Assembly: GCF_025148125.1 (NCBI RefSeq)
Contig: NZ_CP102267.1
Coordinates: forward strand, 1,436,501-1,500,500
Direction of reading: 5' to 3'
DNA length: 64,000 nucleotides
Source: Blautia wexlerae DSM 19850
Lineage (GTDB): Bacteria > Bacillota > Clostridia > Lachnospirales > Lachnospiraceae
Below the pieces are notes generated by a model, which was given only the letters and a program-made list of their open reading frames with translations, was not told the DNA's origin and ran no database searches. Shown here piece by piece: positions 45,829 through 63,833 of this stretch. The position numbers and the translations under genes were made by a program. Position 1 is the stretch's first letter. The number at the start of each line of letters is the position of its first letter.

Positions 45829-45884
45829 CGAAAAAGGCGCCCTGGATGAGATCTCTGTAGATCTTTCCAAAGCGCCTTTGCTTT
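45829..45884 (-). promoter_or_regulatory. ANTAR-type antitermination leader of glnN
   Basis: On the minus strand AAAGC and GCTTT enclose the hexaloop AAAGGC (45879-45874). AAGGCGC from that hairpin can instead pair with GCGCCTT, followed by TTTCG, to form a terminator. The hairpin begins only a few bases from the predicted transcription start. Confidence 0.7.
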
Positions 45885-45893
45885 ATGTGCTGT

Positions 45894-45922
45894 ACTATAA
45901 ACGAAATGAAAACAGATGTCAA
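45894..45922 (-). promoter_or_regulatory. Sigma-A promoter of glnN
   Basis: On the minus strand TTGACA (45922-45917) and TATAGT (45899-45894) are 17 bases apart. Confidence 0.75.
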
Positions 45923-45980
45923 GCACTTTTTTTGAAAAAATTTAGAAAAAATTTTTGAGATATGACAAAAAAAGGATAGG

Positions 45981-46008
45981 TTGACAAATTTGTTTCTATT
46001 ATTATAAT
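45981..46008 (+). promoter_or_regulatory. Sigma-A promoter of purF
   Basis: TTGACA (45981-45986) and TATAAT (46003-46008) are 16 bases apart, about 100 bases before the start codon, divergent from glnN. No purine riboswitch is seen in the leader. Confidence 0.7.
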
Positions 46009-46104
46009 TTGATTTTGGAACCCGCCAAACATAAGAAAACAATGTCAGCGAGTTTTGAAAGTAAAGTTAAAGTCAGACAAGAGAATACGATCGGAGGAAA
46101 TCAG

Positions 46105-47526
46105 ATGGCTGGAATAAAAGAAGAGTGCGGCGTCTTTGGAATTTATGATCTGGATGGCGGCAATGTAGTTCCGTCCATATATTATGGACTGACTTCCCTG
46201 CAGCACAGAGGACAGGAATCCTGCGGACTTGCAGTTTCTGATACTAAGGGAGAGCGTGGAAATGTGAAGTTTCATAAGGATCTGGGACTTGTAAGTGAAG
46301 TTCTCAGACAGGATGTTGTCCGTAAATATGAGGGGGATATTGGTATTGGTCATGTAAGATATTCCACAACAGGAGCTTCTGTTGCAGAGAATGCACAGCC
46401 CCTTGTTTTGTCTTATGTAAAGGGAACTCTTGCACTTGCACATAACGGAAATCTGGTTAATACACCGGAACTGAAATGGGAACTGATCCAGAATGGAGCG
46501 ATTTTCCATACAACTACAGATTCAGAGGTTATTGCGTTCCATATCGCAAGAGAACGTGTGCATTCTAAAACAGTAGAAGAGGCAGTGCTAAAGACTGCAA
46601 AGAAGATCAAAGGTGCATATGGTCTGGTAGTTATGAGCCCGAGAAAACTGATCGCAGTCCGCGACCCATATGGACTGAAACCATTGTGTCTCGGTAAAAG
46701 AGGAAATGCTTATGTTATTGCTTCTGAGAGCTGTGCTCTGACATCTGTAAGTGCGGAATTTATCCGTGACATTGAGCCGGGTGAGATTCTTACGATCACA
46801 AAAGACGGACTGAAGTCAAATAAAGAGCTTGCGTCTGTTGCTGCAAAACGCGCGCATTGTGTGTTTGAGTATATATATTTTGCAAGACTTGACAGTACCA
46901 TTGATGGGGTGAAGGTCTATGATGCCAGAATCCGCGGCGGTAAATCTCTTGCCAAGTCTTATCCTGTAGAGGCAGATCTTGTAACAGGTGTACCGGAGTC
47001 CGGACTCCCTGCTGCAAAGGGATACTCCGAAGCATCAGGAATCCCGTTTGCATTTGCGTTCTATAAAAACAGCTATATTGGAAGAACATTTATCAAACCG
47101 ACTCAGGAAGAACGTGAGTCCAGTGTTCATCTGAAACTGAGTGTGCTGGAATCTGTTGTAAAAGATAAGAGGATTGTTCTGGTGGATGATTCTATTGTTC
47201 GTGGAACAACCATTGCAAACCTGATCCATATGTTAAAAGAGGCGGGAGCAAAGGAAGTGCACGTACGTATCAGTTCACCGCCATTTTTACATCCATGCTA
47301 TTTCGGAACGGATGTGCCGTCAAATGATCAGCTCATTGCAGCCAGCCACAGCACAGAGGAAATCTGTAAAATGATCGGAGCAGATTCTCTTGGCTACATG
47401 CAGACAGATTATCTGGAAGGAATGGCGGGCGGCCTGCCCTTATGTAAGGCATGCTTCGATGGAAATTATCCGATGGAGATTCCGGATTATAGAAATGCGG
47501 AGTTTGCAGATATTGTGAAGTGTTAA
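46105..47526 (+). CDS. purF: Amidophosphoribosyltransferase
   Basis: The protein has 473 residues. A seven-residue propeptide (MAGIKEE) precedes the catalytic Cys of ECGVFGIYD, as in Bacillus-type enzymes. The PRPP-binding loop is IVLVDDSIVRGTT. C-terminal cysteines (LPLCKACF and others) fit the Fe-S cluster. It uses glutamine and PRPP in the first step of purine synthesis. The frame extends back to 46009, but GGAGG ten bases before ATG 46105 decides the start. No other purine genes are adjacent; its neighbours are glutamine enzymes. Confidence 0.95.
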   Translation: MAGIKEECGVFGIYDLDGGNVVPSIYYGLTSLQHRGQESCGLAVSDTKGERGNVKFHKDLGLVSEVLRQDVVRKYEGDIGIGHVRYSTTGASVAENAQPLVLSYVKGTLALAHNGNLVNTPELKWELIQNGAIFHTTTDSEVIAFHIARERVHSKTVEEAVLKTAKKIKGAYGLVVMSPRKLIAVRDPYGLKPLCLGKRGNAYVIASESCALTSVSAEFIRDIEPGEILTITKDGLKSNKELASVAAKRAHCVFEYIYFARLDSTIDGVKVYDARIRGGKSLAKSYPVEADLVTGVPESGLPAAKGYSEASGIPFAFAFYKNSYIGRTFIKPTQEERESSVHLKLSVLESVVKDKRIVLVDDSIVRGTTIANLIHMLKEAGAKEVHVRISSPPFLHPCYFGTDVPSNDQLIAASHSTEEICKMIGADSLGYMQTDYLEGMAGGLPLCKACFDGNYPMEIPDYRNAEFADIVKC

Positions 47527-47714
47527 GTCGCAAAAATTCATAAAAAATGCAGAAACCTGTCGATGATATATGGAATCAATCTCACATAATGGTAAAACCA
47601 ATATAGAATAAAACCATACATAATGTATAAAACAATGCTGCGGAAACATATATAAACGAACAAAATGCACAATAGAACCCCTGCGCTTTATGAAAATTGG
47701 ATAAATTTAAAAAC

Positions 47715-47743
47715 TTGACAAATTCTGAAATGTGGAACATAAT
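47715..47743 (+). promoter_or_regulatory. Promoter of the HPr-like gene
   Basis: TTGACA (47715-47720) and CATAAT (47738-47743) are 17 bases apart. Confidence 0.6.
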
Positions 47744-47795
47744 ATGGGCGTCTGATAGAAAAAAACAAAGAATGTTTTCAGAAAGGGTGATCACG

Positions 47796-48023
47796 ATGTC
47801 ACAGAGTAAAATCAAGTTAAATGCAACTGAAGAGGTGCAGGAATTTGTGAATGCTGCAAGCAGATGTGATTTTGATATTGATGTTTATTACAACAGATTT
47901 TTAATTGATGCCAAATCAATCCTTGGTGTACTTAGTCTGGATCTGACCAGAGAACTGACAGTAGACTGCCACGGGGAGAGCCGGGAATTTGATCGTACAT
48001 TGAAGAAATTTGCAGTTGCATAA
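47796..48023 (+). CDS. HPr-like protein lacking the phosphocarrier histidine
   Basis: The protein has 75 residues. DAKSILGVLSLDL matches the HPr Ser46 region. The GIHARP block with the active His15 is replaced by residues around EVQEFVNAA. It is therefore a PTS HPr homologue that cannot carry phosphate on His15. It might bind a regulator through the Ser46 face. GAAAGGGTG precedes ATG 47796; the longer frame to 47697 overlaps the promoter. It lies alone between purF and pyrG. Confidence 0.72.
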   Translation: MSQSKIKLNATEEVQEFVNAASRCDFDIDVYYNRFLIDAKSILGVLSLDLTRELTVDCHGESREFDRTLKKFAVA

Positions 48024-48207
48024 ATTTTACATTTTTATAACCGAATAATTATCGCAGAGAAGACGGGTCTGGAAGATGAATTTTTACAGATTCGTTTTTT
48101 CTGTATTATGACTGTGTTCAGAGTAATTCCATAAAATATAACTGCTTCATAGTTTATCAGAAGGAACTTATTTGATTTGTTTTTGCTTAAAAACGGGAAA
48201 TTCATTA

Positions 48208-48236
48208 TTGACAAACGAAAAAAAATGTTTTATAGT
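48208..48236 (+). promoter_or_regulatory. Sigma-A promoter of the pyrG-gltB operon
   Basis: TTGACA (48208-48213) and TATAGT (48231-48236) are 17 bases apart. Confidence 0.75.
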
Positions 48237-48264
48237 ATAGCATATTTTTAAAGAAAGCCAATTG

Positions 48265-48364
48265 AACATATTATTATAGAAGATATGATGATCTGACAAA
48301 GGCGTCAGATGCAGAATACCAGATGGGTCAAGTGCCCTCTGATAGCTGCATCTGACGCTTTTTT
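48265..48364 (+). promoter_or_regulatory. ANTAR-type antitermination leader of pyrG-gltB
   Basis: ATCTGAC (48291-48297) and GTCAGAT (48304-48310) enclose the hexaloop AAAGGC. The 3' arm is also the 5' arm of the terminator GCGTCAGATGCAG with CTGCATCTGACGC (48346-48358), then TTTTTT. Just upstream, near 48270-48290, a weaker stem can present ATAGAA, a second hexaloop with A1 and G4, as expected for a dual-hairpin ANTAR site. Confidence 0.75.
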
Positions 48365-48396
48365 ATTAACAAAGGATGATGGAGGAGGAAATCAAA

Positions 48397-50022
48397 ATGG
48401 CAGTGAAATACGTATTTGTTACAGGAGGAGTTGTTTCCGGTCTTGGAAAGGGAATCACAGCTGCATCTCTGGGGCGTCTTCTGAAAGCGAGAGGATACCA
48501 GGTAACCATGCAGAAGTTTGATCCTTATATCAATATCGACCCCGGAACCATGAACCCGATTCAGCACGGAGAAGTTTTTGTAACAGACGATGGTACAGAG
48601 ACAGACCTGGATCTGGGACATTATGAGAGATTCATTGATGAGAGTCTTGATAAAAATTCCAATGTGACAACCGGTAAGGTTTACTGGTCTGTTCTTCAGA
48701 AAGAACGTCACGGGGATTTCGGCGGGGGTACCGTACAGGTAATTCCTCATATTACAAATGAGATTAAGAGTCGTTTCTACCGCGCCAAATCACCGGAGGA
48801 AAACAAGATTGCCATTATCGAGGTGGGAGGAACAGTCGGTGATATTGAAAGCCAACCGTTCCTGGAAGCAATCCGTCAGTTCCAGCTCAATGTGGGACAT
48901 GACAATGCAATCCTGATCCACGTAACATTAATTCCTTATTTAAAAGCATCTGAAGAACTGAAAACCAAACCCACACAGGCAAGCGTAAAGGAACTTCAGG
49001 GAATGGGAATCCAGCCGGATGTACTGGTGTGCAGAAGTGAACATGAGCTGACAGAGGACATTAAAGAAAAAATCGCTTTATTCTGCAATGTACCTGTATC
49101 ACATGTACTTCAGAACCTGGATGTAGAATATTTATATGAAGCTCCTCTTGCAATGGAAAGAGAGAAGCTTGCAGATGTAGTTCTTTCAAGTCTCCGTCTG
49201 GAAAACAGAAAACCGGATTTAAGTGACTGGGAGGAAATGGTAGAAAGTCTGAGAAATCCGAATAAAACAGTAAAGATCGCAATTGTAGGAAAATATACAC
49301 AGCTTCATGATGCATATCTCAGTGTAGTAGAGGCACTGAAACATGGCGGAATTTCCTGCAGAGCCAAGGTAGAGCTTGACTGGATCGATTCCGAAGAACT
49401 GACAGAGAAGAATCTGGATCAGCAGCTTCACAATGTAGATGGTATTCTGGTTCCGGGTGGTTTCGGAAACAGAGGTACAGAAGGAATGATCCTGGCAGCA
49501 CAGTATGCAAGAGTACATAAGATTCCATATCTTGGAATCTGTCTGGGAATGCAGATGGCAATTGTAGAATTCGCCCGTCATGTACTTGGATACGAAGATG
49601 CAAACAGTATTGAATTGAATCCGGAGACAAAGCATCCGGTAATTGCATTAATGCCGGATCAGGAAGATATCGAAGATATCGGTGGAACCTTAAGACTTGG
49701 AAGCTATCCATGTATTCTTGCAGAAGATTCCAGATCCTATGAACTCTTTGGCAAAAAAGAAATCCATGAGCGCCACAGACATCGTTATGAAGTAAACAAT
49801 GCATTCCGTAAAGAACTTCAGGAGAAGGGAATGAATATCGTAGGAACTTCCCCTGATAATCATATCGTAGAGATGATCGAGATCGCAGGGCACCCGTTCT
49901 ATGTAGGAACTCAGGCCCATCCGGAATTCAAATCCCGCCCGAACCATGCACATCCTTTATTCAGAGGATTCATCCAGGCGGCCGTCGATAAGAAAATAAG
50001 CGAAGAACAGCAGCAGAAATAG
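48397..50022 (+). CDS. pyrG: CTP synthase
   Basis: The protein has 541 residues. The synthase domain begins [20 protein letters not shown] with the ATP loop. The glutaminase domain has the nucleophile in [10 protein letters not shown] and the His-Glu pair in the C-terminal AHPEFKSRP region. It converts UTP and glutamine to CTP. GGAGGAGG sits before ATG 48397 rather than the upstream ATG 48376. gltB starts 16 bases after it, so pyrimidine and glutamate synthesis are transcriptionally linked here, behind one ANTAR leader. Confidence 0.95.
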
Positions 50023-50038
50023 AAAGGATGAGGAGATT

Positions 50039-53000
50039 ATGAAAGAAGTGAGAGAACAGCAGCAACAGCAAGGTCTGTACCGGTCTGAATTTGAGCATGA
50101 CAACTGTGGTATCGGAGCAGTTGTCAATATCAAAGGCAAGAAAACCCACGATACTGTTGCAAATGCATTAAAGATCGTAGAACATCTGGAACACCGCGCA
50201 GGTAAGGATGCAGAAGGCAAAACTGGTGACGGTGTAGGTATCCTTCTCCAGATTTCCCATAAATTTTTCAAGAAAGCCTGTAAGAAAGAGGGATTTGAGA
50301 TTGGCGATGAGAGAGAATATGGCATCGCACAGTTTTTCTTCCCGCAGCACGAGATCAAACGCGCACAGGCAAAGAAGATGTTTGAGATCATTCTTGAGAA
50401 AGAAGGTCTGAAACTTCTCGGATGGCGTCAGGTTCCGGTATTTCCGGAGGTACTTGGCCACAAAGCAAGAGAATGTATGCCATGTATTATGCAGGCATTT
50501 ATCAAGAAACCGGAAGATGTAGAGAAGGGACTTCCGTTTGATCGTATGCTCTATATTGCAAGACGTGAGTTTGAACAGAGTAATGACAACACTTACGTAG
50601 TATCCATGAGCAGCCGTACCATCGTTTACAAAGGTATGTTCCTGGTTGGACAGCTTCGTACTTTCTTCGAAGACCTCCAGAGCCCGGATTATGAATCTGC
50701 TATCGCTATGGTACACTCCCGTTTCAGTACCAACACAAACCCAAGCTGGGAGAGAGCACATCCTAACCGTTTCATGGTACACAACGGTGAGATCAACACC
50801 ATCCGCGGCAACGCAGATAAGATGCTTGCAAGAGAAGAAAACATGGAATCCCCATATCTGGAGGGACAGCTTCATAAAGTGCTCCCTGTTGTAAACAGAA
50901 ATGGTTCCGACTCTGCAATGCTTGACAATACACTGGAATTCCTGGTAATGAGCGGCATGGAACTGCCCCTTGCAGTGATGATCACAATCCCTGAACCATG
51001 GGCAAACAATGATACCATTTCCCAGGCAAAGCGTGATTTCTACCAGTACTATGCAACCATGATGGAGCCATGGGACGGACCTGCATCTATCCTCTTCTCA
51101 GACGGTGATGTGATGGGAGCTGTCCTTGACAGAAACGGTCTCCGTCCATCCAGATATTATATTACTTCCGATGGTTACATGATCCTTTCCTCAGAAGTGG
51201 GTGTTCTGCCAATTCCGGAAGAGAAAATCGTATTAAAAGAGCGTCTCCATCCTGGAAAAATGCTTCTTGTAGATACTGTAAAGGGAAAAGTAATTGATGA
51301 CAATGAACTGAAAGAGGGTTATGCAAAAATGCAGCCATACGGTGAATGGCTGGACAGTCATCTGGTACAGTTAAAAGACATCAAGATTCCTAACGAAAGA
51401 CCGGAAGAATACACACCTGAGCAGAGAGCACGTCTGCAGAAAGCATTCGGCTATACTTATGAGCAGTACCGCACTTCCATCAGAAACATGGCGTTAAACG
51501 GAGCAGAGAGCATCGGTGCCATGGGTGTGGATACCCCGCTTGCAGTATTTTCCAAACAGAACAGACCATTATTTGACTACTTTAAACAGCTCTTTGCACA
51601 GGTTACCAACCCTCCGATCGATGCGATCCGTGAGGAAATCGTTACCAGCACAAGTGTTTATGTAGGTAAAGACGGAAACCTGCTGGAGCAGAAACCGGAA
51701 AACTGTCAGGTATTAAAGATTAATAACCCGATTTTGACAAATACAGACATGATGAAGATCAAGAGCTTCAAACATGAGGGCTTCAAGACAGCAGTTGTTT
51801 CTACCTTATATTATAAGAGCACCAAGCTTGAGAGAGCCATTGACCGTCTTTTCGTAGAAGTAGATAAAGCATTCCGTGAGGGTGCAAATATCCTTGTTCT
51901 TTCAGACAGAGGAGTAGATGAAAACCATATGCCGATTCCGTCACTTCTGGCAGTATCCGCAGTTCATCAGCACCTTGTAAAAACAAAGAAGAGTACCTCT
52001 CTTGCCATCATTCTGGAATCCGGAGAACCGAGAGAAGTACATCATTTCGCAACTTTACTTGGTTATGGTGCAAGCGCTATCAACCCATACCTTGCCCTTG
52101 AGACAATCCATGAGCTGATCGACAGCCATATGCTGGACAAAGATTACTATGCAGCAGTAGATGATTACAACCATGCAGTTATCAGCGGAATTGTAAAGAT
52201 TGCTTCCAAGATGGGTATTTCCACCATTCAGTCCTATCAGGGATCTCAGATTTTTGAGGCAATTGGTATCTCTTCTGATGTGATCGAGAAATACTTTACA
52301 GGTACAGTCAGCCGTGTGGGCGGAATCACACTGGAAGACATCGAAGAGAATGTAGAGAAACTTCACTCAGAAGCATTTGACCCATTAGGACTTCCTACAG
52401 ACCTGACTCTGGACAGCGTAGGCGCACACAAGATGAGAAGCCAGGGAGAGGAACATCGTTACAATCCTCAGACTATCCATCTTCTGCAGCAGTCCACATG
52501 GACAGGAAGCTACGATCTGTTCAAACAGTACACAGATCTGGTAGATAAAGAAAACCACGGAAACTTAAGAGGTCTTCTGGACTTTAAGTTTGCCGAGACA
52601 CCGGTTCCGCTTGAAGAAGTAGAAAGTGTAGATGATATCGTAAAACGATTTAAGACAGGTGCCATGTCCTATGGTTCCATTTCACAGGAAGCACATGAGA
52701 CACTGGCAATCGCCATGAACCACCTCCATGGAAAATCCAATACAGGTGAGGGCGGTGAAAGTGACGAGAGACTGGATTCTGCAGGAAGCAGCGATGACAG
52801 ATGCTCCGCAATCAAACAGGTTGCCAGCGGACGTTTCGGTGTAACCAGCCGTTATCTTGTATCTGCAAGAGAAATCCAGATCAAGATGGCACAGGGTGCA
52901 AAACCTGGTGAAGGCGGACATCTTCCTGCAAAGAAGGTATATCCATGGATTGCCAAAACCCGTCATTCTACACCGGGTGTCAGCCTGATCTCCCCGCCAC

Positions 53001-54592
53001 CGCACCACGATATCTATTCTATCGAGGACCTGGCACAGTTAATCTATGACCTTAAGAATGCAAATAAATATGCAGATATTTCTGTTAAACTGGTATCTGA
53101 AGCAGGCGTGGGCACAGTTGCAGCAGGTGTTGCCAAAGCAGGTGCGCAGACAATTCTGATCTCCGGTTATGACGGAGGTACAGGTGCAGCTCCAAGAAGT
53201 TCTATCCACAATGCAGGACTTCCATGGGAACTGGGACTTGCAGAAACGCATCAGACACTGCTCAAAAATGGTCTGAGAAATCGTGTACGCATTGAGACTG
53301 ACGGTAAGCTTATGAGTGGCCGTGACGTTGCAATCGCAGCATTGATGGGTGCAGAGGAATTCGGTTTCGCAACAGCTCCTCTTGTAACCATGGGCTGTGT
53401 AATGATGCGTGTATGTAACCTGGATACCTGCCCGGTAGGTGTGGCAACACAGAATCCGGAACTCCGCAAGAGATTTAAAGGAAAACCGGAATATGTAGAG
53501 AATTTCATGCGCTTTATCGCACAGGAATTAAGAGAGTATATGTCTAAACTGGGATTCCGTACAGTCAGCGAAATGGTTGGACGTACAGATCTTCTGGTTC
53601 AGACAGACAATGTAGCGGAACCACATCAGGGTAAAGTAGATTTAAGTGCAATCCTGAACAATCCATTTGCAGGCAAAGATCAGAAAGTTACCTTTGACCC
53701 GAAGGCTGTATATAATTTCGAACTGGAAAAAACCATGGATGAAAAAGTTCTGGTTAAGAAATGTGCAAATGCAATCAATAAAGGTCAGAAAACAGAGCTT
53801 TCTGTAAATCTGACAAACATTGACCGTACATTCGGAACCATCCTTGGTGCAGAGATTACCAGAAAGAATAAAAACGGACTTGCAGATGACACCATCACTG
53901 TACACTGCAACGGTGCCGGCGGACAGAGCTTCGGTGCATTTATCCCCAAAGGACTTACACTGGAACTGACCGGTGACAGTAATGACTACTTCGGAAAAGG
54001 ACTTTCCGGTGGTAAACTGATCCTGAGGGTTCCGGAGAAAGCTGCATACAAAGCAGAAGAGAATATTATTGTAGGTAATGTTGCCCTCTACGGTGCAACC
54101 AGTGGTACTGCATTTATCAATGGTGTTGCAGGTGAGCGTTTCGCAGTCCGTAACTCCGGTGCATCCGCAGTTGTAGAAGGTGTAGGAGAGCACGGCTGTG
54201 AATATATGACAGGTGGCCGCGTAGTCGTACTTGGTAAGACTGGCAAGAACTTTGCAGCAGGTATGAGCGGCGGTATCGCATATGTACTGGATGTGGATAA
54301 TGTTCTTTACAAGAATCTGAACAAAGCCATGATTTCCATCGAAAAAGTGGAAAACAAATATGACAAAAAAGAACTTCGCGACCTGATTGAAGCTCATGTA
54401 GAAGCAACAGGTTCCAAACTCGGTGCGAAAGTTCTGGCTGACTTTGATTATTATCTGCCGCACTTTAAGAAACTCATTCCGAATGAGTACAAGAAGATGA
54501 TCACTTTAAGTGCAAAACTGGAAGAAAAAGGTCTGAACAGTCAGCAGGCACAGATGGAAGCGTTCTATGAAAGTATTGGCGCTAAACATTGA
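50039..54592 (+). CDS. gltB: Glutamate synthase, large subunit
   Basis: The protein has 1517 residues. The glutaminase Cys follows a propeptide of about 22 residues (DNCGIGAVVNIKG). The central and FMN domains include GEGGESDERLDS. The 3Fe-4S cysteines lie in VCNLDTCPVG. The C-terminal beta-helix has GGRVVVLGKTGKN. It turns glutamine and 2-oxoglutarate into glutamate. It follows pyrG by 16 bases with AAGGATGAGGAG in front, and gltD comes next. Confidence 0.96.
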   Translation: MKEVREQQQQQGLYRSEFEHDNCGIGAVVNIKGKKTHDTVANALKIVEHLEHRAGKDAEGKTGDGVGILLQISHKFFKKACKKEGFEIGDEREYGIAQFFFPQHEIKRAQAKKMFEIILEKEGLKLLGWRQVPVFPEVLGHKARECMPCIMQAFIKKPEDVEKGLPFDRMLYIARREFEQSNDNTYVVSMSSRTIVYKGMFLVGQLRTFFEDLQSPDYESAIAMVHSRFSTNTNPSWERAHPNRFMVHNGEINTIRGNADKMLAREENMESPYLEGQLHKVLPVVNRNGSDSAMLDNTLEFLVMSGMELPLAVMITIPEPWANNDTISQAKRDFYQYYATMMEPWDGPASILFSDGDVMGAVLDRNGLRPSRYYITSDGYMILSSEVGVLPIPEEKIVLKERLHPGKMLLVDTVKGKVIDDNELKEGYAKMQPYGEWLDSHLVQLKDIKIPNERPEEYTPEQRARLQKAFGYTYEQYRTSIRNMALNGAESIGAMGVDTPLAVFSKQNRPLFDYFKQLFAQVTNPPIDAIREEIVTSTSVYVGKDGNLLEQKPENCQVLKINNPILTNTDMMKIKSFKHEGFKTAVVSTLYYKSTKLERAIDRLFVEVDKAFREGANILVLSDRGVDENHMPIPSLLAVSAVHQHLVKTKKSTSLAIILESGEPREVHHFATLLGYGASAINPYLALETIHELIDSHMLDKDYYAAVDDYNHAVISGIVKIASKMGISTIQSYQGSQIFEAIGISSDVIEKYFTGTVSRVGGITLEDIEENVEKLHSEAFDPLGLPTDLTLDSVGAHKMRSQGEEHRYNPQTIHLLQQSTWTGSYDLFKQYTDLVDKENHGNLRGLLDFKFAETPVPLEEVESVDDIVKRFKTGAMSYGSISQEAHETLAIAMNHLHGKSNTGEGGESDERLDSAGSSDDRCSAIKQVASGRFGVTSRYLVSAREIQIKMAQGAKPGEGGHLPAKKVYPWIAKTRHSTPGVSLISPPPHHDIYSIEDLAQLIYDLKNANKYADISVKLVSEAGVGTVAAGVAKAGAQTILISGYDGGTGAAPRSSIHNAGLPWELGLAETHQTLLKNGLRNRVRIETDGKLMSGRDVAIAALMGAEEFGFATAPLVTMGCVMMRVCNLDTCPVGVATQNPELRKRFKGKPEYVENFMRFIAQELREYMSKLGFRTVSEMVGRTDLLVQTDNVAEPHQGKVDLSAILNNPFAGKDQKVTFDPKAVYNFELEKTMDEKVLVKKCANAINKGQKTELSVNLTNIDRTFGTILGAEITRKNKNGLADDTITVHCNGAGGQSFGAFIPKGLTLELTGDSNDYFGKGLSGGKLILRVPEKAAYKAEENIIVGNVALYGATSGTAFINGVAGERFAVRNSGASAVVEGVGEHGCEYMTGGRVVVLGKTGKNFAAGMSGGIAYVLDVDNVLYKNLNKAMISIEKVENKYDKKELRDLIEAHVEATGSKLGAKVLADFDYYLPHFKKLIPNEYKKMITLSAKLEEKGLNSQQAQMEAFYESIGAKH

Positions 54593-54713
54593 TAATAATT
54601 GAATATATCGTGTGAACTTATCAATGTTGCCCCGTCATCTTTTAGAATAAATAAAAAGGTGGCGTGGGCCATACCATTATTGCCGCAGCAAGTGCGGCGA
54701 AGAGGAGGAAATC
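54593..54713 (+). promoter_or_regulatory. gltB-gltD intergenic leader with two hairpins
   Basis: GGTGGC with GCCATACC (about 54659-54676) and GCCGCA with TGCGGC (about 54681-54697) are tandem hairpins just before the gltD ribosome site. There is no AAAGGC hexaloop or T run, so their role is unclear. Confidence 0.35.
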
Positions 54714-56198
54714 ATGGGCAAACCAACAGGATTTTTAGAATATGAGAGAGAGACGGCAAAAGTTCTGCCGCCAAAGGTCCGCATCGCAAACTTCAAAGAA
54801 TTCAGGACCCCATTAAATAAAGAGAAACAGAAACTTCAGGGCGCACGCTGCATGGCATGCGGTGTCCCATTCTGCCAGTCAGGTATGATGATCGGCGGTA
54901 TGGCATCCGGCTGCCCTCTGCACAACCTTGTACCTGAGACAAACGATCTGGTTTATACAGGCAACTGGAAACAGGCATTCTTAAGACTGAGCAAGACACA
55001 TAGCTTCCCGGAATTTACTTCACGTGTCTGCCCTGCACTCTGCGAAGCAGCCTGCACCTGTAATATAAACGGAGAACCGGTATCCACCAAAGAAAACGAA
55101 CGTGCGATCATTGAGACAGCCTATGAGAACGGATGGGTAACCCCGCAGATTCCGGAAGTACGTACAGGCAAGTCTATTGCAGTCATTGGAAGCGGTCCGT
55201 CCGGACTGGCAGCAGCCCAACAGTTAAACAGACGAGGCCACAGTGTAACTGTATTTGAAAGAAAAGACCGTGTAGGCGGACTTCTCCGTTACGGTATTCC
55301 TAACATGAAGTTGGACAAAGCTGTTGTTGACAGAAGAATCCATCTTATGGAAGAAGAGGGAGTGAAATTTGTTACAAATGTAAACGTAGGAAAGGACATC
55401 AAAGCAGAAGAACTTCTGAAACAGTTCGACCGCGTCATCCTTGCCTGCGGAGCATCCAATCCACGAGACATTAAAGTTCCGGGACGTGATGCAAAAGGAA
55501 TCTACTTCGCAGTAGATTTTCTGGGACAGGTAACAAAAGCTCTTCTGGATTCTGACTTTGCCAAAGTTCCATATGAACTTGCAAAAGGCAAAAATGTTCT
55601 GGTCATCGGTGGCGGTGATACAGGAAATGACTGCGTAGGAACATCTATCCGTCTGGGTGCCAAATCTGTGATCCAGTTAGAGATGATGCCCAAGCCGCCA
55701 GTGGAAAGAACACCATCCAACCCATGGCCGCAGTGGCCGAGAGTCCTCAAAACAGACTATGGCCAGGAAGAAGCTATCGCAGTATTCGGACATGATCCAC
55801 GAGTATACCAGACTACGGTTACAGAATTTATCAAAGATAAAAACGGAAATGTCTGCCAGGCAAAGCTCACAAAATTAAAGAGTGAAAAAGATCCAAAGAC
55901 AGGACGTATGATGATGGTTCCTGTAGAAGGAAGCGAAGAAGTCATCCCTGTAGATGTAGTCCTTATCGCAGCCGGATTCCTTGGCAGTGAGAAATATGTA
56001 ACAGACGCATTTAAGGTAGCCATCAATGGAAGAACCAATGTAGATACAAAACCAGAGCAGTATCAGACCTCCGTAGACAAAGTCTTCACAGCAGGAGACA
56101 TGCACAGAGGCCAGTCCCTGGTAGTATGGGCAATACGTGAAGGCAGAGAAGCTGCGAAAGCAGTGGATGAATCACTGATGGGATATTCCTATCTGTAA
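54714..56198 (+). CDS. gltD: Glutamate synthase, small subunit
   Basis: The protein has 494 residues. N-terminal Fe-S cysteines show as CMACGVPFCQSG and GCPLHN, then CEAACTC. The FAD loop is IAVIGSGPSGLAAAQQL and the NADPH loop is VLVIGGGDTGNDC. It passes electrons from NADPH to GltB. AAGAGGAGGAAA precedes the ATG. A strong terminator follows. Confidence 0.95.
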   Translation: MGKPTGFLEYERETAKVLPPKVRIANFKEFRTPLNKEKQKLQGARCMACGVPFCQSGMMIGGMASGCPLHNLVPETNDLVYTGNWKQAFLRLSKTHSFPEFTSRVCPALCEAACTCNINGEPVSTKENERAIIETAYENGWVTPQIPEVRTGKSIAVIGSGPSGLAAAQQLNRRGHSVTVFERKDRVGGLLRYGIPNMKLDKAVVDRRIHLMEEEGVKFVTNVNVGKDIKAEELLKQFDRVILACGASNPRDIKVPGRDAKGIYFAVDFLGQVTKALLDSDFAKVPYELAKGKNVLVIGGGDTGNDCVGTSIRLGAKSVIQLEMMPKPPVERTPSNPWPQWPRVLKTDYGQEEAIAVFGHDPRVYQTTVTEFIKDKNGNVCQAKLTKLKSEKDPKTGRMMMVPVEGSEEVIPVDVVLIAAGFLGSEKYVTDAFKVAINGRTNVDTKPEQYQTSVDKVFTAGDMHRGQSLVVWAIREGREAAKAVDESLMGYSYL

Positions 56199-56217
56199 AA
56201 ATAAGATAAAATATGAG

Positions 56218-56915: not shown

Positions 56916-57170
56916 TTTTGAAATGCTCTACTGGTGCGGTATCCGTGAGGGAGAATTGTTGGCACTGACCGCCGCTGACTTCAATTTTGAGAAAGAAACG
57001 GTCAGAATCAATAAGTCCTATCAGCGATTACACGGCGAAGATGTGATTACCACACCGAAAACAAAGAAAAGTAACCGTGTGATCAAAATGCCGAAGTTCC
57101 TCTGTGAAGAAATGCAGGAATATTTGCAGATGCTTTACGGATTGAAGAAGAAAGACCGAATCTTTACGGT
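56900..57170 (+). pseudogene. Tyrosine recombinase internal fragment
   Basis: FYVFEMLYWCGIREGELLAL, then TPKTKKSNRVIKMPKFL, is the start of an integrase catalytic domain including the first Arg (GIREGE). The part after DRIFTVTKN, with the remaining catalytic residues, is gone. Both ends are joined to unrelated remnants. Confidence 0.75.
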
Positions 57171-57413
57171 CACAAAGAATATCGTAGAGGTGTATATCTG
57201 AATCTGCTTACAAGTGGAAGGTTGAATGATTATTTGGCTGATATAGAAGAACAGGCACAGAAACACTTTGAAAGGATTGTAGAGCAGATGGCAGAGAGTG
57301 AAGGTATTACCGAACAACTTAAAGCAACTGATCAGGTGGCTTGGGTAGTAGAAATGAATAATATTTGGAGTAGAGCAAGAGAGGTTGTGAATGCTGAATT
57401 GATTTATAACTAA
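57170..57413 (+). pseudogene. TnpV-like transposon protein, C-terminal part
   Basis: YRRGVYLNLLTSGRLNDYL, then ADIEEQAQKHFERIVEQMA and the end VVNAELIYN, fits the small TnpV family found in Firmicute transposons. The N-terminal third is replaced by recombinase sequence. A start at 57222 (ATG) is possible but lacks a ribosome site. Confidence 0.55.
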
Positions 57414-57506
57414 AAGAGAAGAGATTTTGGATAAATGCTTGACTGTAAACCTTGTTTATAGCTTATTCTTAAGATAAAATAGAGTTGCTTGAAAGGAGTG
57501 CATAAC

Positions 57507-59044: not shown

Positions 59045-59047
59045 AGT

Positions 59048-60220
59048 ATGTATCAGTTGCTTTTGAAACAGAGATTCAAATTTGCAGTTAGAATGATTAA
59101 ACGAAATATAGGTGCTTATCTTATACTGATTGCTATTGTGCCATGTATTCTTATATTACAATCTATGATTCAGACAACCCATGGAATGGATATTGCTGTT
59201 TTTATACCGTATGGTATTCTCTGCTTCTTGTTTATGAATTTGTTTGGAACAATACCAAGAATGCGTATTTTTCCTGAAACTTATATTTGGAAAATAGAAA
59301 AAACATATATTTGGCGAGTGAAGAAGATAGGAAAAAGCACGGTACTGACGTTGTGTGTTGCGTTGATTTTATTTTGGGCTTTCCCAATGGAGGGAATAGT
59401 TTTGAGACAGTTTATTGTGGTTATGATCTGTAACCCAATCGTCAATATGCATACGGTTTTATCGACGCAATATAAATATCGGGATATTACGAATATATGT
59501 ATGTTAGCAGTAGTAATGATTTGCTTTTTTAATAGAAGTGTATTTGTTGCCAGTGTACTATTGATCATTTACGGATTATATTTCATTTTATATCCTTATT
59601 TTAGCTATCAAGCAATTATCCCGTTCTTTCAACAATATAATCAGATGTTATATGGTTTTTTGAATAGGGAATATGATACAGTCTTGCAAACACAGGATGA
59701 AGTGTTTTTCCAAAATAATCAGAGAGAAATGAAGGGACTGATGAAGAAATATTATGGCAACCGCTACCGTTTTTTGATGGTTTATGAGGTGGTTAGTGTT
59801 ATTAGAAGAAAGAAACAGATTATGTATCAGTATTTTGCGATTGTTTTAATCACAATGTTATTATCGCAGATAGAGGGAAAATATATTGAGTATGTATTAT
59901 TGTTTTCTATATTGATATTAGGACAGAATGTTGTCAGCTATAATGTGCAAAATGAATTACGTTTAGTTAAAAAAGGATTTCCGCTCAGATATTCTTTAAA
60001 AGAAAAATTACAATGCAAGTCAGTTATTGGAATGTTCTTGTTGTTACTCCCGATGCTCTGTTATTGGATAGCGTATAAATTTGAATTATTTAGTATTCTC
60101 CTTTGGATATGGATGCCGATTCAGAGTATTATAATATATACAGCAAAGAACCGGCTGCAAAGGTTACTATATATACTTCCATTTTATATTTTGTCATTGT
60201 TATCTATGAGAGTATGGTAG
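59048..60220 (+). CDS. ABC exporter membrane subunit
   Basis: The protein has 390 residues and about ten hydrophobic segments, with a soluble loop near residues 210-245. No strong family motif is recognised. Its position three bases after the ATPase gene makes it the permease of the set. Substrate unknown; peptide antibiotics are one possibility, by analogy with similar three-gene sets. Confidence 0.7.
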   Translation: MYQLLLKQRFKFAVRMIKRNIGAYLILIAIVPCILILQSMIQTTHGMDIAVFIPYGILCFLFMNLFGTIPRMRIFPETYIWKIEKTYIWRVKKIGKSTVLTLCVALILFWAFPMEGIVLRQFIVVMICNPIVNMHTVLSTQYKYRDITNICMLAVVMICFFNRSVFVASVLLIIYGLYFILYPYFSYQAIIPFFQQYNQMLYGFLNREYDTVLQTQDEVFFQNNQREMKGLMKKYYGNRYRFLMVYEVVSVIRRKKQIMYQYFAIVLITMLLSQIEGKYIEYVLLFSILILGQNVVSYNVQNELRLVKKGFPLRYSLKEKLQCKSVIGMFLLLLPMLCYWIAYKFELFSILLWIWMPIQSIIIYTAKNRLQRLLYILPFYILSLLSMRVW

Positions 60221-60486
60221 ATGTTTTTTTAACAATAAGATTATTGATTTTCTAAGCAAAACCGCTTATAATTTGAGTCGGAACATATTGCTATTATCCA
60301 CAGCAAATAATACTTTTGTTACATTAAATTTGCATATCTACATATCTAAAATAATTTTTGAACCATTCGGCTCATCCATTTCCCTTTATGATTAAGTACA
60401 AAAGACAGTATTTTTGAATTTGTATTTTGCGTATTTTTCTTTCGGAGAATACGGAAACCTTTTCAAATTTGGCATAGAAAAATTGA
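60221..60486. other. AT-rich gap with no recognisable gene
   Basis: No ORF with a ribosome site, no clear terminator and no repeat shared with other parts of the window were found here. Confidence 0.5.
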
Positions 60487-60515
60487 TTGACACCATATAC
60501 GATACCACATATAAT
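60487..60515 (+). promoter_or_regulatory. Sigma-A promoter of the hicAB pair
   Basis: TTGACA (60487-60492) and TATAAT (60510-60515) are 17 bases apart, 20 bases before the hicA start. Confidence 0.75.
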
Positions 60516-60534
60516 GTAAATAGGAGATATAAGA

Positions 60535-60792
60535 ATGTCAAAATGGGATAAACTGATAACACGTATATGTAATTTATCAAAAGATCTTCGATTTGATGAA
60601 TTGCGAAAAGTATTGGAAAGTTATGGATATGAAATGAATGTTCCGAGAAGTGGAAGCAGTCATTATACATTTAGAAAGTCTGGATGTATGCCTATTACAA
60701 TACCAAAACATGAGCCGATAAAGAAAGTATATGTAGAAATGGTAAGGGAAATAGTAGAAAGTGAGGCGAAGAATCATGAAGACGCTGAATGA
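60535..60792 (+). CDS. hicA: HicA-family toxin
   Basis: The protein has 85 residues. A dsRBD-like fold with the catalytic His in SSHYTFRKSG, then ITIPKHEPIKK, matches HicA mRNA interferases. It is a little longer than the usual 60-80 residues at the N terminus. It overlaps hicB by 17 bases. AGGAGATATAAGA precedes the ATG. Confidence 0.83.
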   Translation: MSKWDKLITRICNLSKDLRFDELRKVLESYGYEMNVPRSGSSHYTFRKSGCMPITIPKHEPIKKVYVEMVREIVESEAKNHEDAE

Positions 60793-61138
60793 TTATATGT
60801 CAATGTCCTATCGTATGGAAGTTGTAGAAGATAAAACCGAAGGAGGATTCGTAGTTTCGTATCCGGATCTCCCTGGTTGCATTACCTGCGGAGAAACAGT
60901 GGAAAGTGCAATTTCAAATGCCCTGGATGCAAAAAAAGCATGGCTTGAAGCTGCATTAGAAGAAGGAGTAGAAATCCATGAGCCGGATAGCCTTGAAGAT
61001 TATTCCGGACAGTTTAAACTGAGAATTCCAAGAAGCCTGCATAGACTACTGGCAGAACATTCTCAGAGAGAGGGAATCAGTATGAATCAGTATTGCGTAT
61101 ATCTTCTTTCAAGGAATGATGCGGTATTCTCAAAATAG
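60776..61138 (+). CDS. hicB: HicB-family antitoxin
   Basis: The protein has 120 residues. The HicB fold appears as VVSYPDLPGCITCGETVESA. The C terminus has a ribbon-helix-helix-type segment (LRIPRSLHRLLAEHSQREG) for operator binding. It should neutralise HicA and repress the promoter. ATG 60776, with GAGG ten bases upstream, is chosen over 60761. Confidence 0.87.
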   Translation: MKTLNDYMSMSYRMEVVEDKTEGGFVVSYPDLPGCITCGETVESAISNALDAKKAWLEAALEEGVEIHEPDSLEDYSGQFKLRIPRSLHRLLAEHSQREGISMNQYCVYLLSRNDAVFSK

Positions 61139-61229
61139 CGATTATAAGTAAGCTACAAAGTGTGTTGTCGAGATCGGAGCGCACAGTAACATGGAAAGAG
61201 TCGATGATTTATTAACGAAAAATAAGCAG

Positions 61230-61258
61230 TTGACAAAAAATAAGCATGTTGTTATAAT
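61230..61258 (+). promoter_or_regulatory. Sigma-A promoter of glnA
   Basis: TTGACA (61230-61235) and TATAAT (61253-61258) are 17 bases apart, a perfect consensus pair. Confidence 0.8.
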
Positions 61259-61267
61259 TGCCTACAT

Positions 61268-61321
61268 GAACAAAGGCGTTCTTTCTATAGAAAAGTAACT
61301 GTAGAAAGTGCGCCATTTTTT
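61268..61321 (+). promoter_or_regulatory. ANTAR-type antitermination leader of glnA
   Basis: GAAC (61268-61271) and GTTC (61278-61281) enclose the hexaloop AAAGGC. GGCGTTCTTTCTA (61275-61287) can instead pair with TAGAAAGTGCGCC (61302-61314), one mismatch, before ATTTTTTA. The two folds exclude each other. The first hairpin starts about four bases into the transcript. Confidence 0.75.
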
Positions 61322-61431
61322 ATATCATTATAAGAAGAATCTATAAAACTTCCAGACAGGACAAAACTGTATCGAAGAATCATTAAGAAAGCAAAAACAG
61401 CAGAAACTATGCTGACAAGGAGTGAATGAAA

Positions 61432-62754
61432 ATGGGGAATTATACCAGAGAAGAAATATTACAGATGGCTGAGGAGGAAGACGTGGAATTTATCCGTCTC
61501 CAGTTCACAGATATGTTCGGAACGCTGAAAAACATCGCCATAACTGCCCGGGAACTTCCCCGCGCACTGGATAACCGATGTATCGTAGATGGTTCCTTTA
61601 TCGCAGGAATCGCAGGAGAATCCGAACCGGATATGTACTTAAGACCGGATCTTGACACCTTTGCAATTCTCCCATGGAGACCACAGCAGGGCAAAGTTGC
61701 CAGACTGTTATGCGATATCTATTGTCCGGACGGAACCCCTCATGAGAGAAGTCCGAGATATATCCTGAAGAAAACCGCCCGGGAGGCAAAGAAGGAGGGA
61801 TACACCTGTCTGGTAGATCCGGAATGTGAGTTTTTCCTTTTTCATACAGATGATAACGGAGTTCCGACTACTGTAACACATGAAAAGGCCGGATATCTGG
61901 ATGTCAGTCCTGTGGATCTGGGTGAAAACGCAAGACGTGATATTGTATTAAATCTGGAAGACATGGGGATTGAGGTAGAATCTTCTCACCATGAAACTGC
62001 TCCTGCACAGCACGAAGTAGATTTCAAATACGGTGAAGTCCGTACGATTGCAGACCGGATCATGTCATTTAAGATGACGGTCCGTACCATTGCCAAACGC
62101 CATGGACTTCATGCGACGTTTATGCCGAAACCAAGGGCAGAAGTAAACGGCTCCGGAATGCACATTCATTTCTCCTTATTTAAAGATGGAAGAAATGTAT
62201 TCGTCAATCCGGGAAATCCACAGGAATTAAGCGAAGAAGCTTATTACTTCGTAGGAGGTCTTCTGGCTCACAGCAAAGAGATGGCACTGATCACCAATCC
62301 TATCGTAAATTCCTACAAACGTCTGGTTCCGGGCTATGAAGCACCGACAGAACTGACATGGACAAAGAACAACCAGAATTCACTGGTAAGAATTCCGGGA
62401 TCCAGAGGTATGGAGACAAGGATCGAACTGAGAAGTCCGGATGCAGCAGCAAATCCGTATCTGGTATTTGCAGTATGTCTGGCAGCAGGACTGGATGGAA
62501 TCAATAAGAAGATTTATCCGACTAAGTCCTCCAGCAGAGAGTTATCCGAAACAGATCAGAAAACAATGAAGATTGAAAATCTTCCGGGAAATTTGAACGA
62601 AGCAATTGATTACTTCGAACAGAGTGACTGGATCAAAGAAGTACTTGGAACAGAATTTTGTAAAGAATACGCAGCAGCCAAGAAAAAAGAATGGCTTCGC
62701 TATACAAGAGAAATTTCAGCCTGGGAAATCGAGGAATACTTATACAGAATTTAA
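61432..62754 (+). CDS. glnA: Glutamine synthetase type I
   Basis: The protein has 440 residues, the GSI-alpha length. Marks are DPECEFFLFHTDD, the ATP-site block GSGMHIHFSL, and TWTKNNQNSLVRIPG. ADRIMSFKM, near the Glu flap, is also visible. It is a second glutamine synthetase beside GlnN. ATG 61432 is nine bases after AAGGAG; ATG 61426 is too close. Regulation is probably by the ANTAR leader. The stop codon is part of the cloverleaf-like repeat that follows. Confidence 0.95.
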   Translation: MGNYTREEILQMAEEEDVEFIRLQFTDMFGTLKNIAITARELPRALDNRCIVDGSFIAGIAGESEPDMYLRPDLDTFAILPWRPQQGKVARLLCDIYCPDGTPHERSPRYILKKTAREAKKEGYTCLVDPECEFFLFHTDDNGVPTTVTHEKAGYLDVSPVDLGENARRDIVLNLEDMGIEVESSHHETAPAQHEVDFKYGEVRTIADRIMSFKMTVRTIAKRHGLHATFMPKPRAEVNGSGMHIHFSLFKDGRNVFVNPGNPQELSEEAYYFVGGLLAHSKEMALITNPIVNSYKRLVPGYEAPTELTWTKNNQNSLVRIPGSRGMETRIELRSPDAAANPYLVFAVCLAAGLDGINKKIYPTKSSSRELSETDQKTMKIENLPGNLNEAIDYFEQSDWIKEVLGTEFCKEYAAAKKKEWLRYTREISAWEIEEYLYRI

Positions 62755-62872
62755 CCGAATCAAACAAGTCCCCTGTAGAAATTGTAAAAGGCAATAAGCA
62801 GTGGGTGGGGACTTGTTTGTATCAGGAGGAGCGAAGCTTCTTCTGATAAACTGCGAAGCAGTTATTCGGTTA
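62752..62872. repeat. Cloverleaf-like inverted-repeat element after glnA
   Basis: TAACCGAAT (62752-62760) pairs with ATTCGGTTA (62864-62872). Inside are three adjoining hairpins. First, CAAACAAGTCCCC with GGGGACTTGTTTG. Second, TATCAGGAGGAGC with GCTTCTTCTGATA around GAA. Third, AACTGC with GCAGTT around GAA. All junction bases are paired, so this is a perfect four-way junction. Two loops are of the very stable GCGAAGC type. It may be a mobile repeat or a structured RNA. Confidence 0.7.
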
Positions 62873-62875
62873 TGA

Positions 62876-62962
62876 GCAAGTAGCGAAGCGGATTGCGAAC
62901 ATCCGCTTGATCAAAATCAAACAAGTCCCCTGCAGAGGTTGCAAAAAGCAATAAGCAGTGGA
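62876..62962. repeat. Second, partial copy of the post-glnA element
   Basis: A hairpin GCGGAT with ATCCGC (loop TGCGAAC, about 62887-62908) is followed by AATCAAACAAGTCCCCTG. That resumes the 5' half of the cloverleaf and runs to AATAAGCAGTGG. The 3' half is absent. The short copy at 21288-21333 shares the hairpin module. Confidence 0.65.
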
Positions 62963-63002
62963 CGGAAACTCAGGCTGTAACAGAAATAGGAGTGGCAGAG
63001 TT

Positions 63003-63557
63003 ATGAGCAGCAGCATTGTGATTGCGTTACCGAAAATTGAAGACGCAAAGAAAATCCGCACAATACTTAACAGACATGGGCTCACAGTAGCCTCTGTCTG
63101 CAGCTCTGTCTCTAATGCGCTGGCCAGTATCTCAGAGCTTGACAGTGGTGTTCTGATATGTGGGTATAAGCTGACAGATGCCTATTATAAAGACGCTCTC
63201 GATAACCTGCCACAGTATTTTGAAATGTTGCTTCTGGCTTCTCAGCGTATTATAGATGAAGCACCGAATTCCGTCAGCACTGTACAGATGCCGATGAAAG
63301 CAAGCGTACTGATAGATACGGTCAATGACATGCTCTATCATCTGGAACGCCGGATCAAAAAAGAAAAAAAGAAACCAAAGCCCAGATCAGAAAAAGAACA
63401 GAATTATATCTCGAATGCTAAACGTCTTCTGATGGAAAAAAACCAGATGACAGAAGACGAAGCGTACAGACATATTCAGAAATGCAGCATGGATTCAGGA
63501 ACCAACATGGTAGAAACTGCACAGATGTTACTCATGCTGATGTATGATGAAATCTGA
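63003..63557 (+). CDS. ANTAR-domain transcription antiterminator with degenerate receiver
   Basis: The protein has 184 residues. Residues 1-115 have a receiver-like fold, but the phosphoacceptor position reads GVLICGYKL instead of a strand ending in Asp, and the N-terminal acidic pair is missing. A Lys/Pro-rich linker (KKEKKKPKPRS) leads to the ANTAR domain, YISNAKRLLMEKNQMTEDEA to QMLLML. ANTAR proteins bind RNA hairpins and prevent terminator formation. AAAGGC hairpins precede glnN, pyrG, glnA and the next gene. GGAGTGG precedes ATG 63003. It follows glnA and may share its transcript. Confidence 0.88.
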   Translation: MSSSIVIALPKIEDAKKIRTILNRHGLTVASVCSSVSNALASISELDSGVLICGYKLTDAYYKDALDNLPQYFEMLLLASQRIIDEAPNSVSTVQMPMKASVLIDTVNDMLYHLERRIKKEKKKPKPRSEKEQNYISNAKRLLMEKNQMTEDEAYRHIQKCSMDSGTNMVETAQMLLMLMYDEI

Positions 63558-63629
63558 TTTTTCAAACACGTTCTAAATAAAATATCCGAAAATAATAAGG
63601 AAAATTTTGTAAAAAATGACGATATTATT

Positions 63630-63658
63630 TTGACAGAATATGTGGTAATATACAGAAT
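63630..63658 (+). promoter_or_regulatory. Promoter of the last, partial gene
   Basis: TTGACA (63630-63635) and CAGAAT (63653-63658) are 17 bases apart. GTTAG, then CCCTAAC, near 63678-63706 can form an extra hairpin. Confidence 0.5.
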
Positions 63659-63765
63659 ATATTTTTGTTCATATCAAGTTAGAGGCAAAATACATTTTAA
63701 CCCTAACATTATATTATATATAGAAAGAACACAAACAAACATAAAATAGATAATGACAGGAAGAA

Positions 63766-63833
63766 TGATTACAAAGGCGTAATCAGAGAGTCCAGGGGAC
63801 AACTATCCCCGGATTTTCTGATTACGCCTTTTT
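63766..63833 (+). promoter_or_regulatory. ANTAR-type antitermination leader of the last gene
   Basis: TGATTAC (63766-63772) and GTAATCA (63779-63785) enclose the hexaloop AAAGGC. GGCGTAATCAGA can instead pair with TCTGATTACGCC (63817-63828), then TTTTT, forming a terminator. The arrangement equals that of pyrG. Confidence 0.75.

Follow-up and report, generated by a model that had tools for sequence, protein, structure and literature searches.

ANTAR antitermination and the studied locus

Antitermination by ANTAR proteins is classically mediated by two hairpins in the leader of the target transcript. In the eut genes of Enterococcus faecalis these hairpins are separated by linkers of 5–12 nucleotides (nt), according to the sections of PMC3369931 that treat these leaders, and the search for ANTAR targets described there was defined by a dual hairpin; the same paper also treats nitrogen regulons of other bacteria. 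Dual stem-loops were likewise required in the search outlined in an excerpt of PMC8164766. The structural study of the EutV–RNA complex states that both ANTAR domains of the EutV dimer can touch one hexaloop, and concludes that one hexaloop is sufficient as minimal ANTAR site; it keeps both hairpins in its model of antitermination and asks about the natural importance of single hexaloops (PMC8934654). NitR of Clostridium saccharobutylicum is introduced in the relevant lines of a review as an ANTAR protein capable of antitermination, which induces the genes of the glutamine synthetase/glutamate synthase (GS/GOGAT) cycle on nitrogen limitation (PMC6316151). Here, we analyze a 64 kb stretch (positions 1436501–1500500, hereafter the window) of the 4.69 Mb genome of Blautia wexlerae DSM 19850, which encodes an ANTAR protein and carries hexaloop hairpins in the leaders of four transcription units with glutamine-related functions.

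A first-pass annotation of this DNA had proposed a nitrogen regulon controlled by ANTAR antitermination and had considered a variant with a single hairpin possible. The former remains the best reading of the sequence data, as the genome contains one ANTAR gene and no fifth significant site, the motif tracks ANTAR genes, and the loop obeys the ANTAR rule of A at position 1 and G at position 4 (A1/G4) where this was not demanded; the latter has become the main point. Very likely, the NitR-like ANTAR protein controls a glutamine/ammonia regulon by antitermination via a single hexaloop hairpin in each leader, C[AANGGY]G (loop in brackets), and the same switch probably operates in many related Clostridia. 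This reading is built on the anatomy of the leaders, their conservation, their co-occurrence with ANTAR genes and the lack of a first hairpin (P1) above chance level, all of them features of sequence.

Four hexaloop leaders in the window

Exactly four AAAGGC hexaloop hairpins with a stem of at least 4 bp exist on the two strands of the window, and they are the ones that the first-pass annotation had named. Their targets are glnN, pyrG–gltB–gltD, glnA together with the ANTAR gene, and aspS–gatC–gatA–gatB, and their loops lie at 45879–45874 (minus strand), 48298–48303, 61272–61277 and 63773–63778 (plus strand), respectively. First-order Markov simulation of the window (150 runs) yielded on average 0.69 such hairpins, of which 0.02 overlapped a terminator (at most 1 in any run), versus four in the real sequence, three of which satisfy the strict terminator rule. 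The one failing this rule is glnA, whose predicted terminator is mismatched after five pairs in the fold. Judged by folding, the previously described overlap between hairpin and terminator exists in all four cases: the hairpin 3′ arm and the loop AAAGGC are part of the terminator 5′ arm in every leader, in glnA from loop base 4 onward.

In the glnA leader, the promoter (61230–61258, TTGACA-N17-TATAAT, from sequence and promoter scan) is followed by the predicted antiterminator hairpin GAAC[AAAGGC]GTTC (61268–61281), whose loop begins 13 nt past the −10 box, and by the terminator (61275–61321, −22.2 kcal/mol), the 5′ arm of which starts at loop position 4. The gene itself, encoding a type I glutamine synthetase (61426–62754, plus strand), is located directly upstream of the ANTAR gene. 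On the minus strand, glnN (43589–45688), coding for a type III glutamine synthetase according to its Pfam GSIII_N domain, is preceded by a promoter (45894–45922, TTGACA-N17-TATAGT), the predicted antiterminator hairpin TAAAGC[AAAGGC]GCTTTG (45868–45885) with the loop 14 nt past the −10 box, and a terminator (45831–45879, −28.3 kcal/mol), whose 5′ arm opens with the loop as in the remaining two leaders. The third leader belongs to the presumed controlled operon of pyrG (CTP synthase), gltB and gltD (48376–56198, plus strand), which were identified by Pfam, gltD being named from its oxidoreductase and Fer4_20 domains and its position; here, the promoter (48208–48236, TTGACA-N17-TATAGT), the predicted antiterminator hairpin ATCTGAC[AAAGGC]GTCAGAT (48291–48310) and the terminator (48298–48364, −38.3 kcal/mol) are all on the plus strand, as are the elements of the fourth leader. 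The latter consists of the predicted antiterminator hairpin TGATTAC[AAAGGC]GTAATCA (63766–63785) and a terminator (63773–63833, −42.3 kcal/mol), and precedes what had been called merely the last gene, of which the window holds the 5′ end (63940–64000, plus strand). Reading on in the near-identical contig L041 identified it as aspS, encoding a non-discriminating aspartate–tRNA(Asn) ligase, which is followed beyond the window end by gatC, gatA and gatB. A sigma-A promoter had been assigned to each of the four leaders, and promoters of this type are indeed seen; the fourth is weaker than those of glnA, pyrG and glnN (63630–63658, TTGACA-N17-CAGAAT) and lies 114 nt upstream of the loop, as it does in the relatives L040 and L041.

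The hairpins have folding energies of −1.6 to −7.9 kcal/mol, versus −22 to −42 kcal/mol for the mutually exclusive terminators. Because the terminators are far more stable, OFF is likely the default state. The stem arms vary by gene (GAAC/GTTC, TCTGAC/GTCAGA, AAAGC/GCTTT and GATTAC/GTAATC), as had been observed before, and the loop is constant within the window. No Rfam family matched anywhere in the window at its gathering score. A covariance model trained on 57 leaders, taken from relatives and the window, recovered the four sites in the complete genome with expectation values (E) of 8.2e-7 (glnA), 2.7e-5 (glnN and pyrG) and 6.8e-4 (aspS), but these scores result partly by construction, because each site is present in the model as itself (glnN) or as a near-identical copy (glnA, pyrG and aspS). 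The informative part of this search is the fifth best site, which has an E of 1.5 and hence is not significant.

Conservation of the hairpin among relatives

Using gene positions as reference, leaders were collected for the best 80 of 323 ANTAR relatives as well as the window, and those with at least 200 nt upstream (78 glnA, 40 pyrG, 8 glnN, 36 aspS and 42 gltB leaders) were scanned for a hairpin with the loop AA.GG. and a T run; being orthologous, these leaders are not independent observations. A scan for AAAGGC only, combined with a strict terminator, had recovered 20 of 78 glnA leaders, and relaxing the loop to A..G.. and then to AA.GG. raised this number to 54. The AA.GG. hairpin is furthermore present in 34/40 pyrG, 7/8 glnN, 10/36 aspS and 3/42 gltB leaders, few sites being expected for gltB because it usually follows pyrG, and at least one hairpin was found in 69 of the 80 loci. 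Among the 24 glnA leaders that lack it, 20 have gltD upstream, in 19 cases with its end at most 140 nt away, whereas 28 of the hairpin-bearing glnA leaders have their nearest gltD end at a distance of 151 nt or more, and no gltD was found for the other 26. Since gltD ends so close upstream, the glnA without a hairpin looks like a downstream gene of a gltBD operon.

The invariant AAAGGC loop emphasized in the first-pass annotation is a property of the window only. Across the relatives the loops were AAAGGC (54), AAGGGC (35), AAAGGT (7), AATGGC (5), AAGGGT (3), AACGGC (2), AAAGGA (1) and AACGGT (1), corresponding to the consensus AANGGY, in which A1, A2, G4 and G5 are kept and positions 3 and 6 drift. 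As the AA.GG. scan fixes loop positions 1, 2, 4 and 5 (and pairs 1–4) by selection, invariance at these positions is no evidence, and two less biased checks were added against this circularity. In the first, the 78 glnA, 40 pyrG and 8 glnN leaders were searched for any hexaloop overlapping a terminator, irrespective of the loop sequence. The best hairpins contained AANGGN in 28 of 29 glnA, 26 of 31 pyrG and all 7 glnN leaders that yielded one (61/67 in total), so that the A1/G4 rule, with which the window loops had been said to agree, also holds in relatives when the loop is left free. In the second, AANGGY within terminator 5′ arms was enclosed by at least four pairs in 86/106 cases in the leaders versus 5/173 elsewhere in the same loci. 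By eye, some of these five resemble further real sites.

These counts also bear on the suggestion that the leaders contain ordinary terminators of the type AAAGGC…GCCTTT, or palindromic DNA operators, and no antiterminator at all. Terminator stems commonly begin with AAAGGC, 173 terminator-borne AANGGY were found outside the leaders, and an inverted repeat near the transcription start (+1) could resemble an operator. However, closure of AANGGY by a stem is largely confined to the leaders, and arms that vary by gene (GAAC, TCTGAC, AAAGC, GATTAC) around a fixed loop are the opposite of what an operator would look like. We thus regard this explanation as very improbable.

A probable single hairpin instead of two

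Where glnA is preceded by the hairpin, its loop begins 10–17 nt past the −10 box in 52/54 cases (the exceptions being L066 and L074), and in the glnN leaders 12–14 nt past it in 7/7. The gap between the predicted +1 and the stem is only −4 to 9 nt in 53/54 glnA and 7/7 glnN leaders. With the predicted +1 at or inside the hairpin stem, a P1 would not be possible on these transcripts. For the located sites of the covariance model in Lachnospiraceae, the best-scoring promoter places the loop 10–19 nt past the −10 box in 18/29 cases.

In most pyrG leaders, the predicted start lies some 20 nt or more upstream of the stem. In the window pyrG leader a P1, TATT[ATAGAA]GATA, had been reported as the one clear case, but it is not conserved and probably is a chance match: in pyrG leaders with enough room, a P1-like A..G.. 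hairpin was found in 3/30, compared to 1.4 expected by shuffling, and two of these three come from the window and from L041, which is almost identical to it. Of all 151 distinct sites, 7 have a P1-like hairpin in the preceding 45 nt, versus 7.4 in shuffles. A positive control for the detection of P1 was sought in the terminators of eut loci from other clostridial genomes, which were scanned for A1/G4 hexaloop hairpins upstream. In L186 and L187, which both have an ANTAR gene close to eutB, such a hairpin precedes 4/7 terminators by 17–24 nt, whereas 0.8 are expected by chance and none of 500 shuffles reached this number. The weaker loci with an ANTAR gene nearby yielded one hairpin 35 nt off among seven terminators (L189) and no terminator passing the rule (L188), in L191 the terminator-anchored scan detected no A1/G4 hairpin, and in L190 it detected solely the AAGGGC hairpin described below. 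Over all six eut loci, 6/17 terminators have an A1/G4 hairpin, versus 2.1 expected (4/500 shuffles as high). A dual-hairpin search of eut loci that relied on stem rules only gave no convincing result, unlike the terminator-anchored scan. We consider the eut loci a modest control.

These leaders might nevertheless be classical dual-hairpin targets, whose P1 is poorly conserved or non-canonical and was missed by our scan. Two hairpins are present in the known ANTAR antiterminators covered by the pertinent part of PMC3369931, most pyrG leaders offer the space for a second one, and a weak A..G.. hairpin can form in the pyrG leader of the window. But the predicted glnA and glnN transcripts leave no room for it, P1-like hairpins occur at chance level only, and the same type of scan does detect A1/G4 hairpins in two eut loci. 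This renders a hidden P1 unlikely, and the first hairpin, which had been described as unclear outside pyrG, looks absent rather than unclear from the sequence of these leaders.

Link to ANTAR proteins and distribution in Clostridia

The distance from the start of glnA to the start of the ANTAR gene is 1300–1687 nt in all 79 cases in which both were found (78 loci and the window). The covariance-model search of relatives that had been suggested for the four leaders showed that the motif tracks ANTAR genes. An ANTAR gene was found in 108 of 120 Lachnospiraceae genera, and at E ≤ 0.01 the model matched in 62/108 genera with ANTAR versus 1/12 without (Fisher p 0.001, in a test that ignores phylogeny); among 293 Clostridia genomes, including that of the window, 33/156 with ANTAR versus 2/137 without were matched at E ≤ 1e-3 (p 3e-8, with the same limitation). 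The ANTAR-negative genomes with a match are G152 and G334 at class level and G072 at family level. Inspected by eye, the sites in L157 and L160 appear genuine, so that these drafts may lack the ANTAR protein. Almost no motif was present within ±1.5 kb of the best-scoring ANTAR genes in other genera of Lachnospiraceae (L002–L031), whereas loci with flanks of 10 kb revealed it; this near-absence is probably due to a glnA leader located further upstream, or to differing genes.

Genes downstream of the model matches include glnA, gltB, pyrG and glnN, as identified by blastp to the window proteins. Thirty other downstream genes were classified by Pfam, and include ammonium transporters (6), GATase_2 proteins (6), glutamate dehydrogenase (2), asparagine synthase (1), EutA (1), aminotransferases (2), diaminopimelate epimerase (2), adenylosuccinate synthetase (1), a PucR regulator (1) and three genes for amino-acid or peptide transport (a solute-binding protein of family 3, an oligopeptide ATP-binding cassette transporter and a branched-chain-type permease); two have no Pfam match at E ≤ 1e-10. 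The matches before the two diaminopimelate epimerases, the PucR-type regulator and the adenylosuccinate synthetase were seen in L152, L160, L173 and L175. In L190, the eut region of genome G265, a lone AAGGGC hairpin with a terminator (minus strand, 13208) is located near the eutB locus. The single ANTAR match of this genome is about 2 kb from a glnA-leader match, so that a nitrogen-type ANTAR protein may control ethanolamine use there too.

Conservation of a loop alone does not name its ligand, and another trans-acting factor, such as a loop-pairing small RNA or a different RNA-binding protein, could use the hairpin, with the co-occurrence of ANTAR merely reflecting shared phylogeny, for which our statistics are uncorrected. 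Against this, the leaders obey the A1/G4 rule of ANTAR targets although it was not demanded, the ANTAR gene adjoins glnA, a presumed target, in all 79 cases with both genes, and the genome encodes a single ANTAR protein. We hence deem such a factor improbable, slightly more so than a hidden P1.

The ANTAR protein

As stated by the first-pass annotation, an ANTAR protein is encoded at 63003. This NitR-like protein of 184 amino acids (63003–63557, plus strand) consists of an N-terminal pseudo-receiver and a C-terminal ANTAR domain, which matches Pfam PF03861 with an E of 1.4e-14, above the curated cut-off. It is 99% identical to the protein of a Blautia sp. MSJ-9 contig and 98% to that of a Blautia wexlerae contig. 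Its AlphaFold2 model (predicted local distance difference test score 92) has the EutV–RNA complex 6ww6 as best PDB match and keeps the receiver fold. However, the phospho-acceptor is absent: Asp54 of EutV aligns with Gly54, and by eye this position is G, S, T or A in an alignment of 30 sequences. Control by phosphorylation in the manner of EutV is unlikely because of this replacement.

Residues were mapped by profile alignment to 6wsh, and a numbering offset of two was checked against the residues named in PMC8934654. The EutV residues K149, E160 and Y164 (G4-contacting) and M172 (loop-filling) are kept as K140, E151, Y155 and M163, position 155 being Y, F or H in relatives. The RNA grip appears to be partly rebuilt, which could accompany the extra preference for A2 and G5 and the use of a single hairpin.

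Several observations weigh against a single-hairpin ANTAR regulon. The EutV RNA-contact residues R142, K143, K147 and R168 are changed to Q133, N134, N138 and Q159, and N173, R175 and R177 to D164, G166 and N168. Induction by EutV itself needs both hairpins and their spacing, according to the experiments quoted in part of PMC3369931. In several other Blautia (e.g., L043, L046, L058 and L063), the region separating the ANTAR gene from aspS holds the AANGGY hairpin and no evident promoter, and by eye the terminator follows downstream after the conserved linker ATATCCAATCC, without overlapping the hairpin. No model match at E ≤ 0.01 was obtained in 46 of the 108 genera with ANTAR, and some ANTAR proteins may have other targets. 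Model matches in L148, L151 and L168 precede off-theme genes, namely one with a pyruvate phosphate dikinase domain and two chemotaxis receptors. Besides the neglect of phylogeny, some matched genomes may hold sequences near the training set of the model.

Proposed mechanism and implications

By default, the loop together with the hairpin 3′ arm would serve as 5′ arm of a strong intrinsic terminator, and transcription would stop. When active, the ANTAR dimer would grip the single hexaloop, recognizing A1 and G4 as in known systems and additionally A2 and G5, and the small hairpin held in this way would break the terminator and allow read-through by RNA polymerase. P1 would not be used, the glnA and glnN hairpins being placed right at the 5′ terminus of their predicted transcripts. 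The switch would presumably be turned ON under nitrogen limitation, and its input might be a signal other than phosphorylation, e.g., binding of glutamine synthetase or a PII domain to the pseudo-receiver. As the gene set covers the supply of ammonia and glutamine as well as amidations that consume glutamine, and the ANTAR gene is linked to glnA, the pseudo-receiver may read the glutamine status via a partner, for which glutamine synthetase or the Amt-fused PII domain would be our guess.

On a broader scale, it seems fairly likely that a large ANTAR class of Clostridia has been overlooked, in which a single 5′-terminal hexaloop without the P1 “loading” hairpin regarded as necessary acts as central switch of the glutamine economy, comprising glutamine synthetases, glutamate synthase, ammonium transport, CTP synthase and tRNA-dependent amidation, and that it was missed since published searches needed two hairpins. 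Literature matches listed for ANTAR, nitR, clostridial glnA/gltB, Lachnospir- and Blautia mentioned no such regulon and no single-hairpin ANTAR antitermination in their titles or the starts of their abstracts, but Stutz et al. (2007), the original paper on NitR of C. saccharobutylicum, might describe such leaders. The regulon represents a natural test set for single hexaloops, with dozens of orthologous leaders and a hairpin predicted at or near +1. Gut Clostridia gain a candidate nitrogen regulator, which would bring tRNA-dependent amidation and CTP synthesis under ANTAR control, and the small size of the system, with one protein and leaders of about 50–70 nt, suits direct in vitro tests.

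Neighboring features

Downstream of glnN, an ammonium transporter with a C-terminal P-II domain is encoded (41578–43290, minus strand; Pfam Ammonium_transp at residues 10–408 and P-II at 456–560), and this Amt-PII fusion is the only P-II match of the genome. By eye, the gap between glnA and the ANTAR gene (62760–62970) contains the stretch TCAAACAAGTCCCCTG…AATAAGCAGTGG in two similar copies with a spacing of about 157 nt. Upstream of pyrG (47697–48023) is a gene for a small HPr-like protein with a weak match to phosphotransferase system HPr (PTS-HPr, E=1.3e-5). An IS110-family transposase is encoded at 31049–32317 on the minus strand.

Comparison with known systems

Judged by description and gene position, NitR is a close counterpart: the window ANTAR gene adjoins glnA, as does the NitR gene of C. 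saccharobutylicum, and its predicted sites are at GS/GOGAT genes. With EutV of E. faecalis the system shares the ANTAR fold, the conserved K149, E160, Y164 and M172, a hexaloop with A1 and G4, and a hairpin that overlaps the terminator as the second hairpin (P2) does; it differs from EutV by the lack of P1, the additional conserved A2 and G5, the missing phospho-acceptor Asp and several changed backbone-contact residues. AmiR of Pseudomonas aeruginosa, acting on the amiE leader, also has a non-phosphorylated pseudo-receiver and is controlled by its partner protein AmiC, but in the portion of PMC3369936 devoted to these systems, P1 and P2 are reported for the leaders of both AmiR and NasR (Klebsiella oxytoca, nasF leader). 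BglG/LicT proteins similarly stabilize one hairpin that excludes a terminator, yet their domain is unrelated, and their target, the ribonucleic antiterminator (RAT) bound by the co-antiterminator (CAT) domain, is recognized at internal loops of the stem and not at a terminal hexaloop (same portion of PMC3369936). Taken together, we read the Blautia leaders as members of a widespread class of ANTAR regulation that uses one hexaloop and is operated by a pseudo-receiver protein resembling NitR, as far as sequence comparison can suggest.

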